This document shows positions 9,378 to 59,212 of a DNA stretch of 59,212 nt, piece after piece. The DNA comes from Planotetraspora kaengkrachanensis (lineage in GTDB: Bacteria > Actinomycetota > Actinomycetes > Streptosporangiales > Streptosporangiaceae). The position numbers and the translations under genes are program-made. Within the stretch, counting starts at the first letter, position 1. Every line of letters begins with the position of its first letter. The stretch spans positions 1 through 59,212 of the forward strand of contig NZ_BONV01000029.1 of the NCBI RefSeq assembly GCF_016862895.1, read 5' to 3'. The notes beneath the pieces were generated by a model. It did no database searches. It saw only the letters and a list, made by a program, of their open reading frames with translations, and was not told the origin of the DNA.

Positions 9378-10766
9378 GTGACGATCAATCATCCGCTGAG
9401 CCGCGTGGGGGCCACGCTAGCGGCGCTAGCCGTCGGTCTCTTGGCGTTGTTCGCGTTCTCCCCGGCCGCCCTGGCCGCGGCCCCGCCCGACCCCGCCACC
9501 GTGCTCGCGGGATGGCGAGGCGGAGACCCGCTCTTCGTCCAGAGCGGTTCGCCTCTGTCAGGTGGCCAGCAGGGCGACATCCGCAAGGCGCTGGAGGAAT
9601 CCAAGTCCAAGATCTACGCGGTCGCAATGCCCGACGGCACCGTGACCACGGCTCAGGCCGGGCAGTTCATCACCACCCTGGGCACGGAGCTCGACAAGGC
9701 CGGCCGGTCGAGCGCGACAGTGATCGTCCTTGACGGCACCAGCGTCTTCGCCGGCTCGAGCGCCCTGCCGCGCGGCGTCACGGCGGGCCAGCTGGCCAGG
9801 CTCTCCACGGGTAACAACCCCGGGGAACTGGTCACCGGCATCCAGGACTTCGTCAACCGGGTGAACAAGGCCGTTGAGGGCGACGTCAACGGCGCCCGCG
9901 AGAGTGGCAGTGCGGCAGGCGGCGGTGGCGGCACCGGCATCCTGGTGGGCATTCTCGGAATCGCCGTCGTCGGAGGTGCCGGTTTGTGGGTCGTGTCGCG
10001 CCGGATGAAGCGCAAGCGCGAGGAGCGGGAGGCCGCCGGACTCGCCGCCGTGAAGCAGACCGTCGAGGAGGACGTCACCAAGTTCGGTGAGGAGATCACC
10101 GCCCTCGACGTCGACGTCAAGATGCTGCCGCAGGCCGAGACCTCGGGCGACTGGCAGCGCGCCCTCGACTCCTACGAACGCTCGAAGACCGAGCTGGCCG
10201 CGGTCAAGCGCCCGGATGACCTGCGGGCCGTGACCTCCTCCCTCGAGGACGGCCGCTACGCCCTCGCGTGCGTCAAGGCCCGCGTGAACAACCAGCCGCT
10301 GCCCGAGCGGCTCCCGCCGTGCTTCTTCAACCCGCAGCACGGTCCGTCCGTCCGCAACGTGCGCTGGGCTCCGCCCGGCGGCGCCGTCCGCGAGGTCCCG
10401 GCCTGTGCCGCGGACGCCGAGGCGGTCGAGCGCGGCTTCGACCCGCAGATGCGCGAGGTCGTCGTCAACGGTCAGCGGCGGCCGTACTGGGACGCGGGCC
10501 CGGCCTACCAGCCCTACGCCTACGGCTACTACGGCGGTTTCGGCGGCGACCTCATGACCGGAATGCTGGTCGGCACCATGCTGGGCGGCGCCTTCGGCGG
10601 CTGGGGCGGCGGTTACGGCTACGGCGGCGGATACGAGGCCGGCTACCAGGACGGCGTCGACGCGGGCGGAGGCGACTTCGGAGGCGGCGGCGACTGGGGC
10701 GGCGGAGGCGGCGACTGGGGTGGCGGCGACTTCGGCGGAGGAGACTTCGGCGGCGGCGACTGGTGA
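9378..10766 (+). CDS. Membrane protein: extracytoplasmic TPM-like region, TM, shared cytoplasmic domain, Gly-rich tail
   Basis: 462 residues. Signal peptide or anchor (LAALAVGLLALFAFSPAALAAA), then an extracytoplasmic region to about residue 180 that loosely recalls TPM/Rv1476-type domains. A TM segment lies at about 188-208. The cytoplasmic domain begins with EEDVTKFGEEITALDVDVK at about 230 and contains CFFNPQHGPS and WAPPGG with a second Cys (VPAC), possibly a metal site. The tail is Gly/Asp/Trp/Tyr repeats (GGGDWGGGGGDWGGGDFGG). GTG start with GAAGGAGG. The TGA stop lies at the edge of the first 53-bp repeat array. The pentapeptide gene downstream has the same TM plus EEDVT domain. Function unknown; an envelope stress sensor is an inference. 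Confidence 0.7.
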   Translation: MTINHPLSRVGATLAALAVGLLALFAFSPAALAAAPPDPATVLAGWRGGDPLFVQSGSPLSGGQQGDIRKALEESKSKIYAVAMPDGTVTTAQAGQFITTLGTELDKAGRSSATVIVLDGTSVFAGSSALPRGVTAGQLARLSTGNNPGELVTGIQDFVNRVNKAVEGDVNGARESGSAAGGGGGTGILVGILGIAVVGGAGLWVVSRRMKRKREEREAAGLAAVKQTVEEDVTKFGEEITALDVDVKMLPQAETSGDWQRALDSYERSKTELAAVKRPDDLRAVTSSLEDGRYALACVKARVNNQPLPERLPPCFFNPQHGPSVRNVRWAPPGGAVREVPACAADAEAVERGFDPQMREVVVNGQRRPYWDAGPAYQPYAYGYYGGFGGDLMTGMLVGTMLGGAFGGWGGGYGYGGGYEAGYQDGVDAGGGDFGGGGDWGGGGGDWGGGDFGGGDFGGGDW

Positions 10767-10902
10767 CCCAGCCCCACCCTTGGGTGTGATCATGCACAGG
10801 TTCGGGATCGTGCCGGTCGACCTGCGGTCATCTTGTTCGTGATCATGCACAGATTCGAGATCTTGGGCTTCTACCAGCGGATTCACAGTTCGTGATCATG
10901 CA
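10764..10902 (+). repeat. 53-bp tandem repeat array, forward arm (three GTGATCATGCA heads)
   Basis: Heads GTGATCATGCA start at 10786, 10839 and 10892, exactly 53 bases apart. The first two units share GTGATCATGCACAG-TTCG and are similar across much of the rest. The innermost unit breaks off right after the head. Before 10786 lies a partial unit (TGACC to CCCCACCCTTGGGT) matching the end of a unit in the opposite array, and it includes the stop codon of the upstream gene. The units diverge gradually rather than having identical repeats with unrelated spacers. Confidence 0.9.
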
Positions 10903-10941
10903 AAAGCCCCGAGCGGGCGGGCATTGACCCACCGCACCAAC

Positions 10942-10982
10942 CGTGTGGCCTTGCACTCCATTCGAGAGTGCAAGGCCACACG
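10942..10982. repeat. Perfect 17-bp hairpin between the two arrays
   Basis: Arms CGTGTGGCCTTGCACTC (10942-10958) and GAGTGCAAGGCCACACG (10966-10982) pair without mismatch around a 7-base loop. There is no T-tract on either strand, so it is not a typical intrinsic terminator. A structural or protein-binding role is possible. Confidence 0.85.
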
Positions 10983-11003
10983 TGTTCCATGGCATCGCGT
11001 TCC

Positions 11004-11072
11004 GACCTGGCCCGCGCATCAACCTGACCCGCGCATCTCAACCTGACCCGCGCTCCCAACCTGGCCCGCGCT
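11004..11072 (+). repeat. Four short direct repeats
   Basis: Four copies of a 14-base unit, (A/G)ACCTG(A/G)CCCGCGC, start at 11004, 11021, 11040 and 11059 with 3- to 5-base spacers. They lie between the hairpin and the inner end of the reverse 53-bp array. Confidence 0.8.
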
Positions 11073-11294
11073 GCATGATCACCAAATGAGACACCCCCGG
11101 TCAGCTGTCCCGCAGCCGAATCCGTGCATGATCACGAGCTGAGAATCCGCAGGTCGAGCGGCGCGATCCCGAACCTGTGCATGATCACGCCGGGTGAAGG
11201 CGCAGGTCACGAGCCGCGACCGCGAATGTGTGCATGATCACGCCCAAGGGTGGGGGTGGTCAGACGGCTCGATCCCGAACCTGTGCATGATCAC
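11072..11294 (-). repeat. 53-bp tandem repeat array, reverse arm (five heads)
   Basis: On the minus strand, heads GTGATCATGCA begin at 11294, 11241, 11188, 11135 and 11082, each exactly 53 bases from the next. Units beginning at 11294 and 11188 share GTGATCATGCACAGGTTCGG and the next GATCG with the first forward unit. As in the forward arm, the innermost unit is truncated. The outer end reaches to ten bases from a TAGGAT -10 box of the pentapeptide gene. Confidence 0.9.
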
Positions 11295-11303
11295 CACCAG
11301 CGG

Positions 11304-11309
11304 TAGGAT
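11304..11309 (+). promoter_or_regulatory. Candidate -10 box of the pentapeptide gene
   Basis: TAGGAT lies 39 bases before the TTG start. The last GTGATCATGCAC head (11283-11294) falls in the position of the spacer and part of the -35 region, so a protein bound to the repeat would affect this promoter. No good -35 consensus is seen. Confidence 0.35.
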
Positions 11310-11347
11310 CGGGTGAGACACTCGGGGGGTTTGTTCAGGAGGCCCCT

Positions 11348-12547
11348 TTGCGTCGCGTCACCCCCCTTGTTCTCGCCGCATTCCTCGCAATCGCCCCGGC
11401 GACGGCCGTACTCGCGGCTTCGCAGGCCGCCGCAGCGTCGGCGGCGCCGTGCAAGAAGGGCAGCGGGCCCCATCTCCGCGGCAAGGACTTCACCGACGGC
11501 ACTCCCCTCCCCTCCGACCTGCGGTGCGCGGACCTCACCAGGGCCAAGCTCGACGAGGTGGACCTGACGCGGACGGACCTCACCGGGGCCGTCCTGCGAG
11601 ACGCCTCCCTCAAGGAGGCGGATCTGACGCAGGTCCACGTGGAGTACGCCGATCTCCGCGGCGCCGACCTCAGCGAAGCGGACCTCGGCCAGTTGCGGGC
11701 CAAGCAGGCCGATTTCCGCGGGGCCGTCCTCATCGACGCGGAGGCGGGCCAGGCCGAGTTCCCGCACGCGGACCTCACCGAGGCCGTCCTCACCAGGACC
11801 GTGCTGACCCAGGCCGATCTCACCGACGCCACGCTCAAGGCGGCCGACCTCCGGGGCGCCGAGCTCGGCCAGGTCAGGGCGCGTACGGCGGACTTCACGG
11901 GAGCCCGTCTGCGGGACGCCACCTTCGACCAGGCGGAGCTGCAGTACGCCGTGTTCAAGGACGCCGACCTGACGAAGTCCTCGTTCACCCAGGCCAACCT
12001 CCAGGGGGCCGACCTGCGGGGGGCCGACGTCGAGGACGCGAGCTTCACCCAGGCCGACGACCTCAATCTCACCGGGGCACGGGGCTCGGCCGAGGACGTC
12101 CCCGACGACGCGATCGTGCCCGACGGCGCAGGCAACCCGATCACCGGCGTGCTCGGCGGCTCAGGCCAGGGCCCGTCGACGGCCGTGGTGCTGATCGTCC
12201 TCAGCACGCTCGGGCTGGGCGCGACGCTCATGATCTGGGGGGCGGCCCATCGGCACCGGCGGCGCTCCGCGGCTGCCTACGCGGCCGCCCGCCGGGCGGC
12301 GGAGGAGGACGTCACCCGGTTCGGCGAGGAGATCGACGCGCTGGACTTCGACATGAAGATCAACCAGCTCAACGGGCCCAACGGCGAATGGCAGGCGGCC
12401 CTGGACGCCTACGAGGCCGCCAAGCGGTCGCTGCTCATCGCGCAGACGCTGCAAGAGCTCGACGGCGCCGCCGCGGCCGTACGGCACGGGCGGCAGGCGC
12501 TGGAGGCGGTCAGGAGACGGCTGTCAGATGTCCACCGACAGGGGTGA
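11348..12547 (+). CDS. Pentapeptide-repeat membrane protein with shared C-terminal cytoplasmic domain
   Basis: 399 residues. Signal peptide (MRRVTPLVLAAFLAIAPATA), then about 180 residues of A(D/N)Lxx pentapeptide repeats (ADLTRAKLDEVDLTRTDLTG and on) that should form a right-handed quadrilateral beta helix outside the cell. A TM segment follows at about 277-300. The cytoplasmic domain (EEDVTRFGEEIDALDFDMK near 318-336, then a GEWQAALDAYEAAK helix) matches that of the gene at 9378. TTG start with CAGGAGG four to five bases upstream. Its last 24 bases overlap the convergent lpdA gene. Role unknown; the paired architecture suggests related sensors or scaffold proteins. Confidence 0.8.
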   Translation: MRRVTPLVLAAFLAIAPATAVLAASQAAAASAAPCKKGSGPHLRGKDFTDGTPLPSDLRCADLTRAKLDEVDLTRTDLTGAVLRDASLKEADLTQVHVEYADLRGADLSEADLGQLRAKQADFRGAVLIDAEAGQAEFPHADLTEAVLTRTVLTQADLTDATLKAADLRGAELGQVRARTADFTGARLRDATFDQAELQYAVFKDADLTKSSFTQANLQGADLRGADVEDASFTQADDLNLTGARGSAEDVPDDAIVPDGAGNPITGVLGGSGQGPSTAVVLIVLSTLGLGATLMIWGAAHRHRRRSAAAYAAARRAAEEDVTRFGEEIDALDFDMKINQLNGPNGEWQAALDAYEAAKRSLLIAQTLQELDGAAAAVRHGRQALEAVRRRLSDVHRQG

Positions 12548-32604: not shown

Positions 32605-33852
32605 ATGGCGGACGAGCACGCCACCGGCAAGGGAGTGAATCCGGCCGACAGCGGCACCGCGCAGGAGGGCGGCACCGGACGGCAGACGGACGAGACCGGC
32701 TCACCGCCGGCACGGCCCACCGCGCAGGGACACGGCCGCACGGACCCGGCCGCCGCACAGCCTGCGCAGGTCGCCGCGGACGCCCGCGCCGGCGACGACC
32801 GGCCGCTCGGCAGGCTCGGCCGCCCCTTCAACCACCGGTCGCCCTTCTTCATCGGGATGGCCGGCGCCGCCGGGATCGCGGTGACGTACGCCCTGATCCA
32901 ACTGGTGATCAGCGTGCGCGACGTCCTGGTGCTGATCGGGCTCGCGATGTTCCTGGCCATCGGCCTCAACCCGGCGGTCGAGTGGCTGGTGGGCAGACGC
33001 CTGCCGCGATGGGCGGCGGTGACCGCCATCGTGCTGGCGACGCTGGGACTGGCGGGCGGATTCCTCGCCCTGGCCATCCCCGCCCTGGTCGACCAGGGCG
33101 GCCAGTTCGCCAAGCAACTCCCCGGCTACGTCCACAGCCTGCAGGACCGTCACTCCGTGCTCGGCAGCCTCAACCAGCGCTTCCAGATCGAAAGGCGCAT
33201 CACCGAACTGACGACGTCCGGGACCGGGCTCTCGCTGGCGGGCGGCCTGCTGGGCGCCGGCCGGATCGTCCTGAGCACGGCCGCGTCCTTCCTCATCGTC
33301 TGCGTGCTGATGATCTACTTCCTGGCGGACCTGCCGCGCATCACCGGCACCGTCTACCGGTGCATCCCCCGCTCCCGGCGGGCGAGGGCCGTCCTCATCA
33401 CCGACCAGGTCCTGATGAAGGTCGGCGCGTACGTGCTGGGGAACCTGATCACCTCGGTGATCGCCGGCGTGGCCACCTTCCTGTGGCTGGTCATCTTCGG
33501 AGTGCCGTACCCGGCGCTGCTCGCCCTGTTCGTCGCCCTCGTCGACCTCGTGCCGGTGGTGGGGTCCACGATCGGCGGAGTGGTCGTCTGCCTCGTGGCG
33601 CTCCTGGTCTCGTTCCCGGTCGCGCTCGCCACGCTGGGCTTCTACCTCGCCTACCGGTTCGTGGAGGACTACCTGATCGTCCCCAAGATCATGGGGAAGG
33701 CCGTCGACGTGCCCGGAGTGGTCACGGTTCTGGCCGTCCTGATCGGCGGAGCCCTGCTCGGCATCGTCGGCGCGCTGATCGCGATCCCCGTCGCGGCCGC
33801 CATCCGGCTGCTGCTGAACGAGATCGCCTTCCCACGCCTGGACCGCTCGTGA
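32605..33852 (+). CDS. AI-2E family transporter (permease)
   Basis: 415 residues. A hydrophilic N-terminal 75 residues rich in Gly, Thr and Ala, then seven to eight membrane segments with the family pattern (IGLAMFLAIGLNPAVEWLVGRRLPRW, DLVPVVGSTIGG, RFVEDYLIVPKIMGKAV). Members of this family export autoinducer-2 or act as Na+/H+ antiporters; which applies is unknown. ATG 32605 is preferred over 32473 because GAGAGGAAG precedes it and the extra residues are not family-like. Confidence 0.85.
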   Translation: MADEHATGKGVNPADSGTAQEGGTGRQTDETGSPPARPTAQGHGRTDPAAAQPAQVAADARAGDDRPLGRLGRPFNHRSPFFIGMAGAAGIAVTYALIQLVISVRDVLVLIGLAMFLAIGLNPAVEWLVGRRLPRWAAVTAIVLATLGLAGGFLALAIPALVDQGGQFAKQLPGYVHSLQDRHSVLGSLNQRFQIERRITELTTSGTGLSLAGGLLGAGRIVLSTAASFLIVCVLMIYFLADLPRITGTVYRCIPRSRRARAVLITDQVLMKVGAYVLGNLITSVIAGVATFLWLVIFGVPYPALLALFVALVDLVPVVGSTIGGVVVCLVALLVSFPVALATLGFYLAYRFVEDYLIVPKIMGKAVDVPGVVTVLAVLIGGALLGIVGALIAIPVAAAIRLLLNEIAFPRLDRS

Positions 33853-33926
33853 CCGCCCCGCGCCGGGGCGGCCGGCCAGCGTCAGTTCTTGACCGCCCCG
33901 CGCCGGGGCGGCCGACCGGCGTCAGT
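33851..33926 (+). repeat. Two tandem 40-bp repeats each with a GC hairpin
   Basis: A 40-base unit starting GACCGCCCCGCGCCGGGGCG at 33851 recurs at 33891 with a few differences. Each copy contains CCGCCCC-gcgcc-GGGGCGG, a 7-bp stem with 5-base loop, and ends near GTCAGT. They sit just past the AI-2E gene stop and run into the 3' end of the convergent M20 gene, so a double bidirectional terminator is the likely role. Looks like a local duplication. Confidence 0.8.
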
Positions 33927-35166
33927 GGGCGTCGGCCCCCCAGAGCGCGGTCAGTGTCGTCGCGGCCATGACCTTCACCCCGTAGCCGATCGCCCGCTCG
34001 TCGACGTCGAACTCCGGACGGTGGATGTCGACCTCGTCGATCGCGCCCGGCGACCTGGTGCCGAGCCGTGCCAGAGCGCCGGGCACCGACTCGACGTACC
34101 ACGAGAAGTCCTCGCCGCCGAGGCTCTGCGGCGTGGGGACGGCCGCTCCCTCTCCGAGGATCTGGTCGATGGCGTCGTGCAGCATCTGGATGCTCGTGGC
34201 CTCGTTGACCGTGGGAGGCGTGCCGCGCTTGTAGTTCAGCTCCGCGTCCACGCCGTACGCCCCGGCGACCGAGTCGAGCAGCGCCTTGACGAGGTCGGGC
34301 GCCTGGTGCCAGGCGTTCTCGTCCAGGGACCGGATGGTCCCCTGCGCAGTGCCGACGTCCGGGATGGTGTTGAAGGCATAGCCGGCGGTGATCTGACCCC
34401 ACACCAGGCTGAGGCTCGACCGCGGGTCGACCCGGCGGGACAGGGCGGCGGGAAGCTCCGTGATGATCTTGCTGAGCGCGTAGACGAGGTCGACGGTCAG
34501 GTGCGGGCGGGCGGTGTGCCCGCCGGGGCCGGACACCTTGATCTGGATGTGGTCGCAGGACCCGGTGATGGGACCGGTGCGCAGGCCGATCTGCCCGACG
34601 TCGATCCTGGGGTCGCAGTGGAGGGCGAAGATCCGGTCGACCTCGTTGAGGCCGCCGTCACGCATGACCTCGAGGGCGCCGCCCGCGACCTCCTCGGCCG
34701 GCTGGAAGATCAGACGCACGCGGCCGGGCAGGGCGCCGGCGTCCGCCTGCGAGGCGAGGAACAGCCCGGCTCCGAGGACGACCGCGGTGTGCACGTCGTG
34801 CCCGCACGCGTGGCAGGCCTCCGGGTTCGTCGACCGGTACGGAACGTCCTTCTCGTCCTCCATGGGCAGCGCGTCGATGTCGGCGCGCAGCGCCACCGTG
34901 GGCCCGCTGGCCTCGCCGAGGTCGACCCACAGGCCCGTGCCACGGGACAGCAGCCGGGGCGTCAGGCCCGCGTCCGTCAGCCGCTCAGCGATCTTCTCGG
35001 TGGTGCGGTGCTCGCTGAAGGCGATCTCCGGGTGGGCATGGACATCGCGCCGGAACTCGATCAGCTCATCGTTGTGCTCGCGAAGGAAGCCCGCCAGCTG
35101 CCCAGCCAGGTCGTTTCCCCCGGGCGGAGCCATGTCAGGCGGGGCGAGCTTCGATGAGGTGGTCAC
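33922..35166 (-). CDS. M20-family amidohydrolase (aminoacylase/carboxypeptidase-like)
   Basis: 414 residues of the M20D/IAA-amino-acid hydrolase-like family, which cleaves N-acyl or amide bonds on amino acids. The metal motif ACHACGHDVHTA and QPAEEVAGGALEVM, with the dimerisation-domain entry SGPGGHTARPHL, are all present. Cytoplasmic, no signal. GTG start with GAAGGGAAG upstream. The physiological substrate cannot be told from sequence. Its last bases lie within the second 40-bp repeat. Confidence 0.88.
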   Translation of the reverse strand: MTTSSKLAPPDMAPPGGNDLAGQLAGFLREHNDELIEFRRDVHAHPEIAFSEHRTTEKIAERLTDAGLTPRLLSRGTGLWVDLGEASGPTVALRADIDALPMEDEKDVPYRSTNPEACHACGHDVHTAVVLGAGLFLASQADAGALPGRVRLIFQPAEEVAGGALEVMRDGGLNEVDRIFALHCDPRIDVGQIGLRTGPITGSCDHIQIKVSGPGGHTARPHLTVDLVYALSKIITELPAALSRRVDPRSSLSLVWGQITAGYAFNTIPDVGTAQGTIRSLDENAWHQAPDLVKALLDSVAGAYGVDAELNYKRGTPPTVNEATSIQMLHDAIDQILGEGAAVPTPQSLGGEDFSWYVESVPGALARLGTRSPGAIDEVDIHRPEFDVDERAIGYGVKVMAATTLTALWGADAH

Positions 35167-59105: not shown

Positions 59106-59125
59106 CCGGTCACCCGGTTGTTTCA

Positions 59126-59212
59126 GGCGCGTGTTCCTGGCGCGTGTTTCTGGCGCGTGTTCCTGGCGCGTGTTTCTGGCGCGTGTTCCTGGCGCGTGTT
59201 TCTGGCGCGGCC
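59126..59212 (+). repeat. 13/26-bp tandem repeat, cut by the window end
   Basis: Six full 13-base units alternate GGCGCGTGTTCCT and GGCGCGTGTTTCT, so the true period is 26 bases (three copies), starting at 59126. The final unit breaks off at GGCGCGGCC at the end of the window. It lies 20 bases past the preceding stop; no coding role is seen. Confidence 0.9.

Follow-up and report, generated by a model that had tools for sequence, protein, structure and literature searches.

Dispersed arrays of an 11-bp word at 53-bp pitch lie at gene ends in Planotetraspora and may be phased, oriented protein-binding sites

Results

We describe a family of repeat arrays represented by an element in a 59,212-nucleotide stretch of the Planotetraspora kaengkrachanensis genome (assembly GCF_016862895.1, contig NZ_BONV01000029.1, positions 1-59,212, forward strand), referred to in its full length as the window. 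The element lies between an open reading frame (ORF) of 462 amino acids as listed (9378..10766, + strand; our gene caller starts it further in), which has no Pfam match and ends in a TGA stop codon at 10764-10766, and a gene encoding a pentapeptide-repeat protein of 399 amino acids (11348..12547, + strand). It is built on an 11-bp word, GTGATCATGCA, which we term the head; a head together with its linker up to the next head is termed a unit. A C-rich leader resembling the tail of a unit (10767..10785, + strand) separates the stop codon from three forward heads at 10786..10796, 10839..10849 and 10892..10902, each step being 53 bp, and five heads on the reverse strand follow at 11072..11082, 11125..11135, 11178..11188, 11231..11241 and, outermost, 11284..11294, again with each step at 53 bp. 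The original prediction, made from the letters of the window alone, had listed these eight heads and their intervals correctly, along with a 169-base centre (10903-11071) holding a perfect 17-bp hairpin (arms 10942-10958 and 10966-10982); the four direct repeats that it placed in the centre are also present (11002-11071, spacing 17, 19 and 18), although we call them at 16 bp each and not at 14.

The hairpin is itself part of the array, as a degenerate innermost pair of heads. Its left arm contains the degenerate head GTGGCCTTGCA (10945-10955, + strand) exactly 53 bp past the head at 10892, and because this head keeps the 53-bp register the left arm comprises four heads. Its right arm contains a second degenerate head, TGCAAGGCCAC (10969-10979, - strand), and the two are separated by a 13-bp centre (10956..10968), the commonest inner-head gap in the family. 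From the inner head ending at 10979 the right arm takes a step of 103 bp, not 106, enclosing the four short repeats. We compared the locus with its orthologues in P. mira (G125), P. silvatica (G022), P. thailandica (G077), Planotetraspora sp. A-T 1434 (G059) and P. phitsanulokensis (a putative name; G104), the P. kaengkrachanensis genome itself being G000. A variant head was found by script at the orthologous place 53 bp from the preceding head in G104, A-T 1434 and G186, and in P. thailandica the distance is 53 bp too once a chance two-mismatch head is set aside; it is 46 bp in P. mira, and at the P. silvatica place the pattern used by the script had no match. The gap of G215 orthologous to the window array (L063) contains a different repeat, roughly GGTTCCCGGATCGCC, instead of the 53-bp array of its relatives, in several copies spaced, by eye, at roughly 30-50 bp.

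The arms had been predicted to touch both flanking genes. The two sides differ in this: on the left the first head lies 19 bp behind the stop codon, and on the right the arm ends 53 bp ahead of the called start. The flanking proteins do have in common a 76-residue stretch (EEDVT.FGEEI.ALD.D.K; 42% identity, E 1e-14), as was also predicted; this shared domain seems to have no bearing on the array, as many genes other than these are flanked by arrays. A search of Rfam with window positions 10600-11500 returned nothing above threshold, and three sub-threshold microRNA matches fell on the hairpin, the best with E 0.016 and 25.3 bits against a gathering score of 83.

The window array is one of a dispersed family that is oriented and, in about half of cases, two-armed and inverted. 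The head occurs 786 times in the 8.77-Mb genome (384 forward, 402 reverse) while its reversed control occurs 0 times, which excludes chance. Head pairs at exactly 53 bp number 389 in P. kaengkrachanensis, 445 in P. silvatica, 652 in P. thailandica, 367 in P. mira, 74 in G104 and 238 in A-T 1434; leaving G104 aside, this makes 2,091 pairs at 53 bp against 63 at 19-49 bp and 90 at 54-84 bp, in a search that left spacings of 50-52 bp outside its range and in which some of the 54-84 bp pairs span two shorter steps. The stretches of the P. kaengkrachanensis genome that were read comprised 480 kb of tiles, three stretches of 9-10 kb and the window; in the first tiles 167 of 189 neighbouring same-strand gaps were 53 bp and 6 were 52 bp, and forward heads preceded reverse heads in all 19 mixed clusters. 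Along this genome the heads seem uneven, most of the first 100 places listed being on C1 (606 kb) and 4 on C2.

For the genus we assembled 95 stretches with three exact heads at 53 bp, a selection that favours intact arrays. All 95 were used for inner gaps and the larger orientation count, and 80 of them for dialects, gene location and arm linkers; in these counts, as in that of stop-codon overlaps, orthologous arrays of different species were counted separately, so that the counts and p-values do not represent independent events. No reverse head lay to the left of a forward head in 84 of 88 mixed clusters, and four clusters broke the order. Two arms were present in 62 of 119 arrays and a single arm in the remaining 57. 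The gap between inner heads was 13 bp in 17 of 73 two-arm arrays, with varied sequence.

A local role as an iteron, partition or operator array, as originally proposed, does not fit 786 heads dispersed genome-wide with no single local site. Iterons, parS sites and operator arrays are helically phased direct repeats found at single loci beside replication, partition or regulator genes; the present family, in contrast, is dispersed, and its member in the window is flanked by a Pfam-less protein and a pentapeptide-repeat protein. The original prediction had also held that a repeat scattered over many unrelated intergenic regions with varying spacing would be a common dispersed repeat: the scattering over unrelated regions is what we found, but the spacing is nearly constant. 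Clustered regularly interspaced short palindromic repeats (CRISPR) were rejected on account of the wide dispersal of the loci and the vertical inheritance of their linkers with gradual drift, a judgement made without a search for cas genes.

The arrays are concentrated at the ends of genes, as called with a simple codon-score script made for this analysis. Convergent gaps held 51 of 119 arrays but made up only 83 of 578 background gaps of at least 100 bp (p 5e-11), and divergent gaps held 9 of 119 arrays against 174 of 578 in the background (p 4e-8). The outer end of an array faced the 3′ end of a gene in 128 of 181 cases, at a median distance of 18 bp, while the median distance to a gene's 5′ end was 124 bp, and in 26 of the 128 3′-facing ends the called stop codon is the TGA within the head itself.

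Within the unit, conservation extends over bases 0-11 (the head plus one base), A or G at 12, TTCG at 15-18, YGACCWGS near 32-39, AC.C near 44-47 and C at 52, the remainder being variable (72 units with exact heads on both sides). The bases after the head form species dialects: GAAG follows it in P. thailandica, where base 11 is G in 182 of 188 units, and mostly CAGG in the other species; A-T 1434 has TTCC, base 18 being C in 46 of 46 units; only 8 units of the tally come from G104 and P. phitsanulokensis. Orthologous units in P. thailandica carry that species' dialect in place, with linker similarity kept in several and near random in others. Dialects, together with copy number and inverted pairs, would also be expected of a species-recognition signal of the kind of the DNA uptake sequences of Neisseriaceae and Pasteurellaceae, which are short and abundant, have a strict core, lineage-specific dialects (PMC3630211, seen in part) and inverted pairs near terminators. 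The likeness ends with the ordered 53-bp arrays at gene ends, which are no known trait of uptake sequences, and we regard such a function as very improbable.

Closeness to stop codons and the excess in convergent gaps would also suit elements acting as RNA hairpins, either as bidirectional intrinsic terminators or as stabilisers of mRNA 3′ ends, and in 28 of 73 two-arm Planotetraspora arrays the inner heads are no more than 20 bp apart and could pair. A hairpin within each unit (CAGGT/ACCTG) was rejected, as there was no covariation, pairing equalled expectation and the P. thailandica dialect breaks the stem. A full-length foldback between arms was rejected as well, the linkers of opposite arms showing no special complementarity. 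Similarity is 0.39 for opposite-arm linkers, 0.39 for linkers of one arm and 0.34 for random units, in a comparison that omitted clusters in which an arm had fewer than two heads or no unit, or in which the order was broken. Opposite-arm linkers are thus no more alike than same-arm linkers, so that pairing of one arm with the other is not the property that is conserved. Among 29 long centres only 7 have an unusually long stem, and z falls below -2 in 8 (control segments: 2 of 29). With 57 of 119 arrays lacking a second arm, and with no evident RNA rationale for strict 53-base spacing over drifting linkers, we consider an RNA-level function unlikely.

Arrays are mostly at conserved loci: in 180 comparisons between species the flanks were found for 125, of which 100 had an array, 5 a single head and 20 none. 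Units were then aligned between species, with large-gap units (whole-unit losses) omitted and only those reference units admitted whose next head lay at 53 bp. Between P. mira and P. silvatica the units showed 265 substitutions and 4 indels, against 227 and 30 in array-free convergent gaps (Fisher p 1e-6), and between P. kaengkrachanensis and P. mira 686 substitutions and 3 indels, against 548 and 61 (Fisher p 1e-17). Because reference units had to be 53 bp long, only one side could show indels; with control indels halved p becomes 0.008 and 4e-8, respectively. P. kaengkrachanensis and P. silvatica differed by 771 substitutions and 10 indels (p 3e-5 against the halved control of the P. kaengkrachanensis-P. 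mira pair).

The head is held too. Between P. mira and P. silvatica only 4 of 460 sites differ at head bases 0-9 while linkers differ at about 15%; the last head base (10) differs in 11 of 46. Linker identity in this pair is 0.845, compared with 0.859 in array-free convergent gaps. For the more distant pair of P. kaengkrachanensis and P. mira, in which some aligned units may be non-orthologous, it is 0.66 when only units at least half alike are taken and about 0.55-0.62 when all are included, compared with 0.691 in convergent gaps. Linkers thus drift like array-free convergent gaps or somewhat faster, while the head and the 53-bp length are held. Hypermutation of linkers, which the P. mira-P. 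silvatica value suggested when set against 0.955 for all array-free gaps, was rejected, as the difference is gone against convergent gaps.

In G104 the arrays are short and the heads barely better kept than the linkers (0.75 against 0.62); alignment with P. kaengkrachanensis gave 470 substitutions and 12 indels, with 2,261 and 203 in all array-free gaps. To judge from these alignments the pattern is as after loss of a need for the arrays, with misaligned units possibly contributing.

The elements also spread, since copying was seen. Sixteen A-T 1434 loci were fetched for a centre of about 29 bp, and by eye 14 of them carry a similar element, alike in unit order, centre and C-rich leaders, in differing gene contexts; of the other two, L246 diverges more and L247 runs into the end of its contig. 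The similar centre of about 29 bp in many of these arrays (L238-L253) has the appearance of a recently spread subfamily. Opposite three P. thailandica arrays the orthologous gap is array-free in the other four species, and two of these gaps are short, at 68 and 46 bp between anchors; alternatively, the arrays may have been lost in the ancestor of the other four species. Across the family the C-rich leader is only loosely conserved.

Such copying, the shrunken arrays of G104 and a patchy occurrence among genomes (15 of 341 in the family, and 328 heads in one genome of a genus against 0 in another, see below) are what one would expect of a selfish repeat resembling repetitive extragenic palindromic (REP) sequences or miniature inverted-repeat transposable elements (MITEs), non-autonomous and mobilised by a putative enzyme recognising the head and its tag, for which gene ends are simply tolerated landing places. 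We regard this as possible, if clearly less probable than a binding-site function. Inert copies would not be expected to keep head and length constant at loci inherited vertically, and by eye no target duplication was seen at the three array-free comparisons or the 14 A-T 1434 copies. The Y1 transposase domain PF01797 had 0 matches in P. kaengkrachanensis, P. silvatica, G104, P. mira and A-T 1434 and only 4 partial or broken pieces in P. thailandica, on which ground we rejected a REP transposase as mobiliser, absent or broken as it is in the six array-bearing Planotetraspora genomes searched. We also rejected a transposon with the arms as its ends, the genes between distant arms being ordinary as judged by reading their translations, with no family search.

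A relationship to viruses, phages or plasmids was considered and rejected. Viral contigs contained no 53-bp array and no inverted head pair; head pairs with other spacings occur in six stretches of viral contigs, which have G+C 0.42-0.50 and look unrelated. Against phage records the window array had two weak matches, the best at E 7e-6; this is the match of window 10764-11300 to Pseudomonas phage OP917824.1, with 79.7% identity over query bases 235-303. No plasmid matched the window array at E 1e-5. For an array from G428, a genome from another family, the plasmid search gave one weak hit (Variovorax, E 0.01) and the phage search none at E 0.1. With short queries from G428 and G487 all plasmid hits were weak, among them a match of 19 of 19 bases that falls at two places on a Nocardia plasmid. 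The one of these places that was read, positions 1501-1519 on the plasmid of Nocardia sp. NBC_01503 (L290), comprises a head with an f28-like tag, and the head's TGA is the stop codon of an annotated gene.

In these samples the 53-bp pitch is chiefly a trait of Streptosporangiaceae and the 11-bp word is wider. A relaxed pattern matched 15 of 341 genomes of the family; one of them, G087, with one hit, looks like chance, and the other 14 comprise 5 of 5 in the genus itself, 1 in g59, 5 of 15 in g65, 2 of 2 in g34 and 1 in g51. In 11 two-arm arrays read from G186, G084 and G034 (genera g65 and g34) 53 bp is the commonest step; three heads per arm are seen in 6 of the arrays and an inner-head gap of 2 bp in 6. 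Among 394 genomes sampled across the class there were 6 matches: P. kaengkrachanensis itself, G119, G428 and G487 of other families, and G366 and G087, both chance-like. Head counts are 328 in G428, 90 in G487, 45 in G367 and 0 in G384, the last being of the same genus (g106) as G428. Two families other than Streptosporangiaceae carry the head in inverted pairs and short arrays: in 26 stretches from G428 and G487 other tags follow the head (CRTCCTGGG; CGTTCGCCCC), and most heads form such pairs or arrays close to genes, at varying spacing. In G487 the inverted pairs give hairpins (up to about 21 bp) that commonly lie 13-28 bp past a stop codon, which speaks for an action at the RNA level.

Two further repeats were noticed in the window, a near-perfect tandem array of a 13/26-bp unit at its very end (59119-59209) and a GC-rich 40-bp tandem repeat of about two copies (33850-33939).

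Discussion

The conservation of the word and of the length over drifting filler, the nearly strict order and the dialects suggest oriented protein-binding sites, and we think it slightly more probable than not that the arrays are phased, oriented sites of a putative DNA-binding protein whose complex acts as a boundary at gene ends. Each element would be a set of sites for one such protein, a site consisting of the 11-bp head and about 8-10 bp of species-specific tag. In Planotetraspora and its kin, sites at exactly 53 bp, or five helical turns, would place the protein molecules on one face of the DNA, where they may touch and assemble into a nucleoprotein complex that has mirror symmetry if both arms exist. 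The complex would most likely be a boundary that blocks or ends transcription, because the elements follow closely on stop codons and are over-represented between convergent genes, and the elements would now and then be copied to new gene ends. Of the original prediction, the phased array of protein-binding sites is still the best reading once a local role is dropped, and it gains strength from the linkers, whose drift gives a yardstick for how well the head and the 53-bp length are conserved.

Several observations weigh against this interpretation. The proposal that all heads fall on one face after five turns agrees with the 53-bp step itself, but spacings other than 53 bp showed no significant 10.5-bp periodicity (p ~0.1). 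With nearly half of the arrays one-armed, symmetry is not required. A polar block to transcription is not demonstrated, as one-arm arrays between tandem genes point along transcription in 19 cases and opposite in 10 (p 0.14). Some unit indels do occur, namely the 10 and 12 in the comparisons of P. kaengkrachanensis with P. silvatica and G104. Outside Streptosporangiaceae the spacing is mostly not 53 bp, and 4 of 24 mixed clusters in G428 and G487 break the forward-then-reverse order. For the putative protein, a search of about 355 kb of tiles gave no gene absent solely from G104, where the arrays have shrunk.

No description of the element was found in the literature searched, mostly titles and abstracts. 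Oriented sites for a protein that stops a polymerase are found in the TTF-I/Sal-box arrays of eukaryotic ribosomal DNA and in Tus-Ter at replication termini, and the arrays resemble these in architecture, with oriented sites in arrays behind genes, though for a protein that is here putative. The mycobacterial interspersed repetitive units (MIRU) are likewise actinobacterial intergenic units, about 53 bp long and in contact with stop codons; they are near-identical direct repeats in tandem, whereas here the likeness is limited to the head and some parts of the unit, and the arms are often inverted.

In their spread the elements are somewhat like REP elements, which are extragenic and dispersed, lying behind genes and in gaps between genes that converge or run in one direction (PMC3733652, seen in part); in the main text of that source on REPs, as far as available, the words Actinobacteria, Streptosporangi and Streptomyces are absent. 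Like REPs, bacterial interspersed mosaic elements (BIMEs) and REPINs (REP doublets forming hairpins), the arrays occur in hundreds of copies scattered outside genes, have inverted partners, are over-represented behind genes and in convergent gaps, and are copied occasionally. They differ from REP/BIME, with its 20-40 bp palindrome and GTAG/CGTC tag, in that the Planotetraspora unit has no supported palindrome and CAGG, GAAG, GTTT and others follow the head, although a REP-like CGTC follows it in many f28 copies, where inverted pairs form hairpins. They differ further in the exact 53-bp tandem pitch with drifting linkers and in the lack of an intact Y1 transposase in the six genomes searched.

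More tentatively, several actinobacterial families may share a gene-end marking system, in which a patchily inherited putative protein reads the 11-bp word together with a lineage-specific tag and co-evolves with the dialects. In Streptosporangiaceae its assembly along five-turn-phased, often mirror-symmetric arrays would yield large boundary complexes, bacterial equivalents of insulators or Sal-box terminator arrays, that set neighbouring transcription units apart and partition the chromosome. The close pair G428 and G384 could reveal the protein by gene content.

The arrays show that a dispersed repeat can hold one length while its filler drifts. If the interpretation is true, many gene ends in each genome would carry a common phased protein platform, the dialects would form a natural series for the co-evolution of a protein and its sites, with G104 as a natural case of shrinkage, and the family would offer a model for insulating convergent genes or organising the nucleoid with a spacing set by helical turns.

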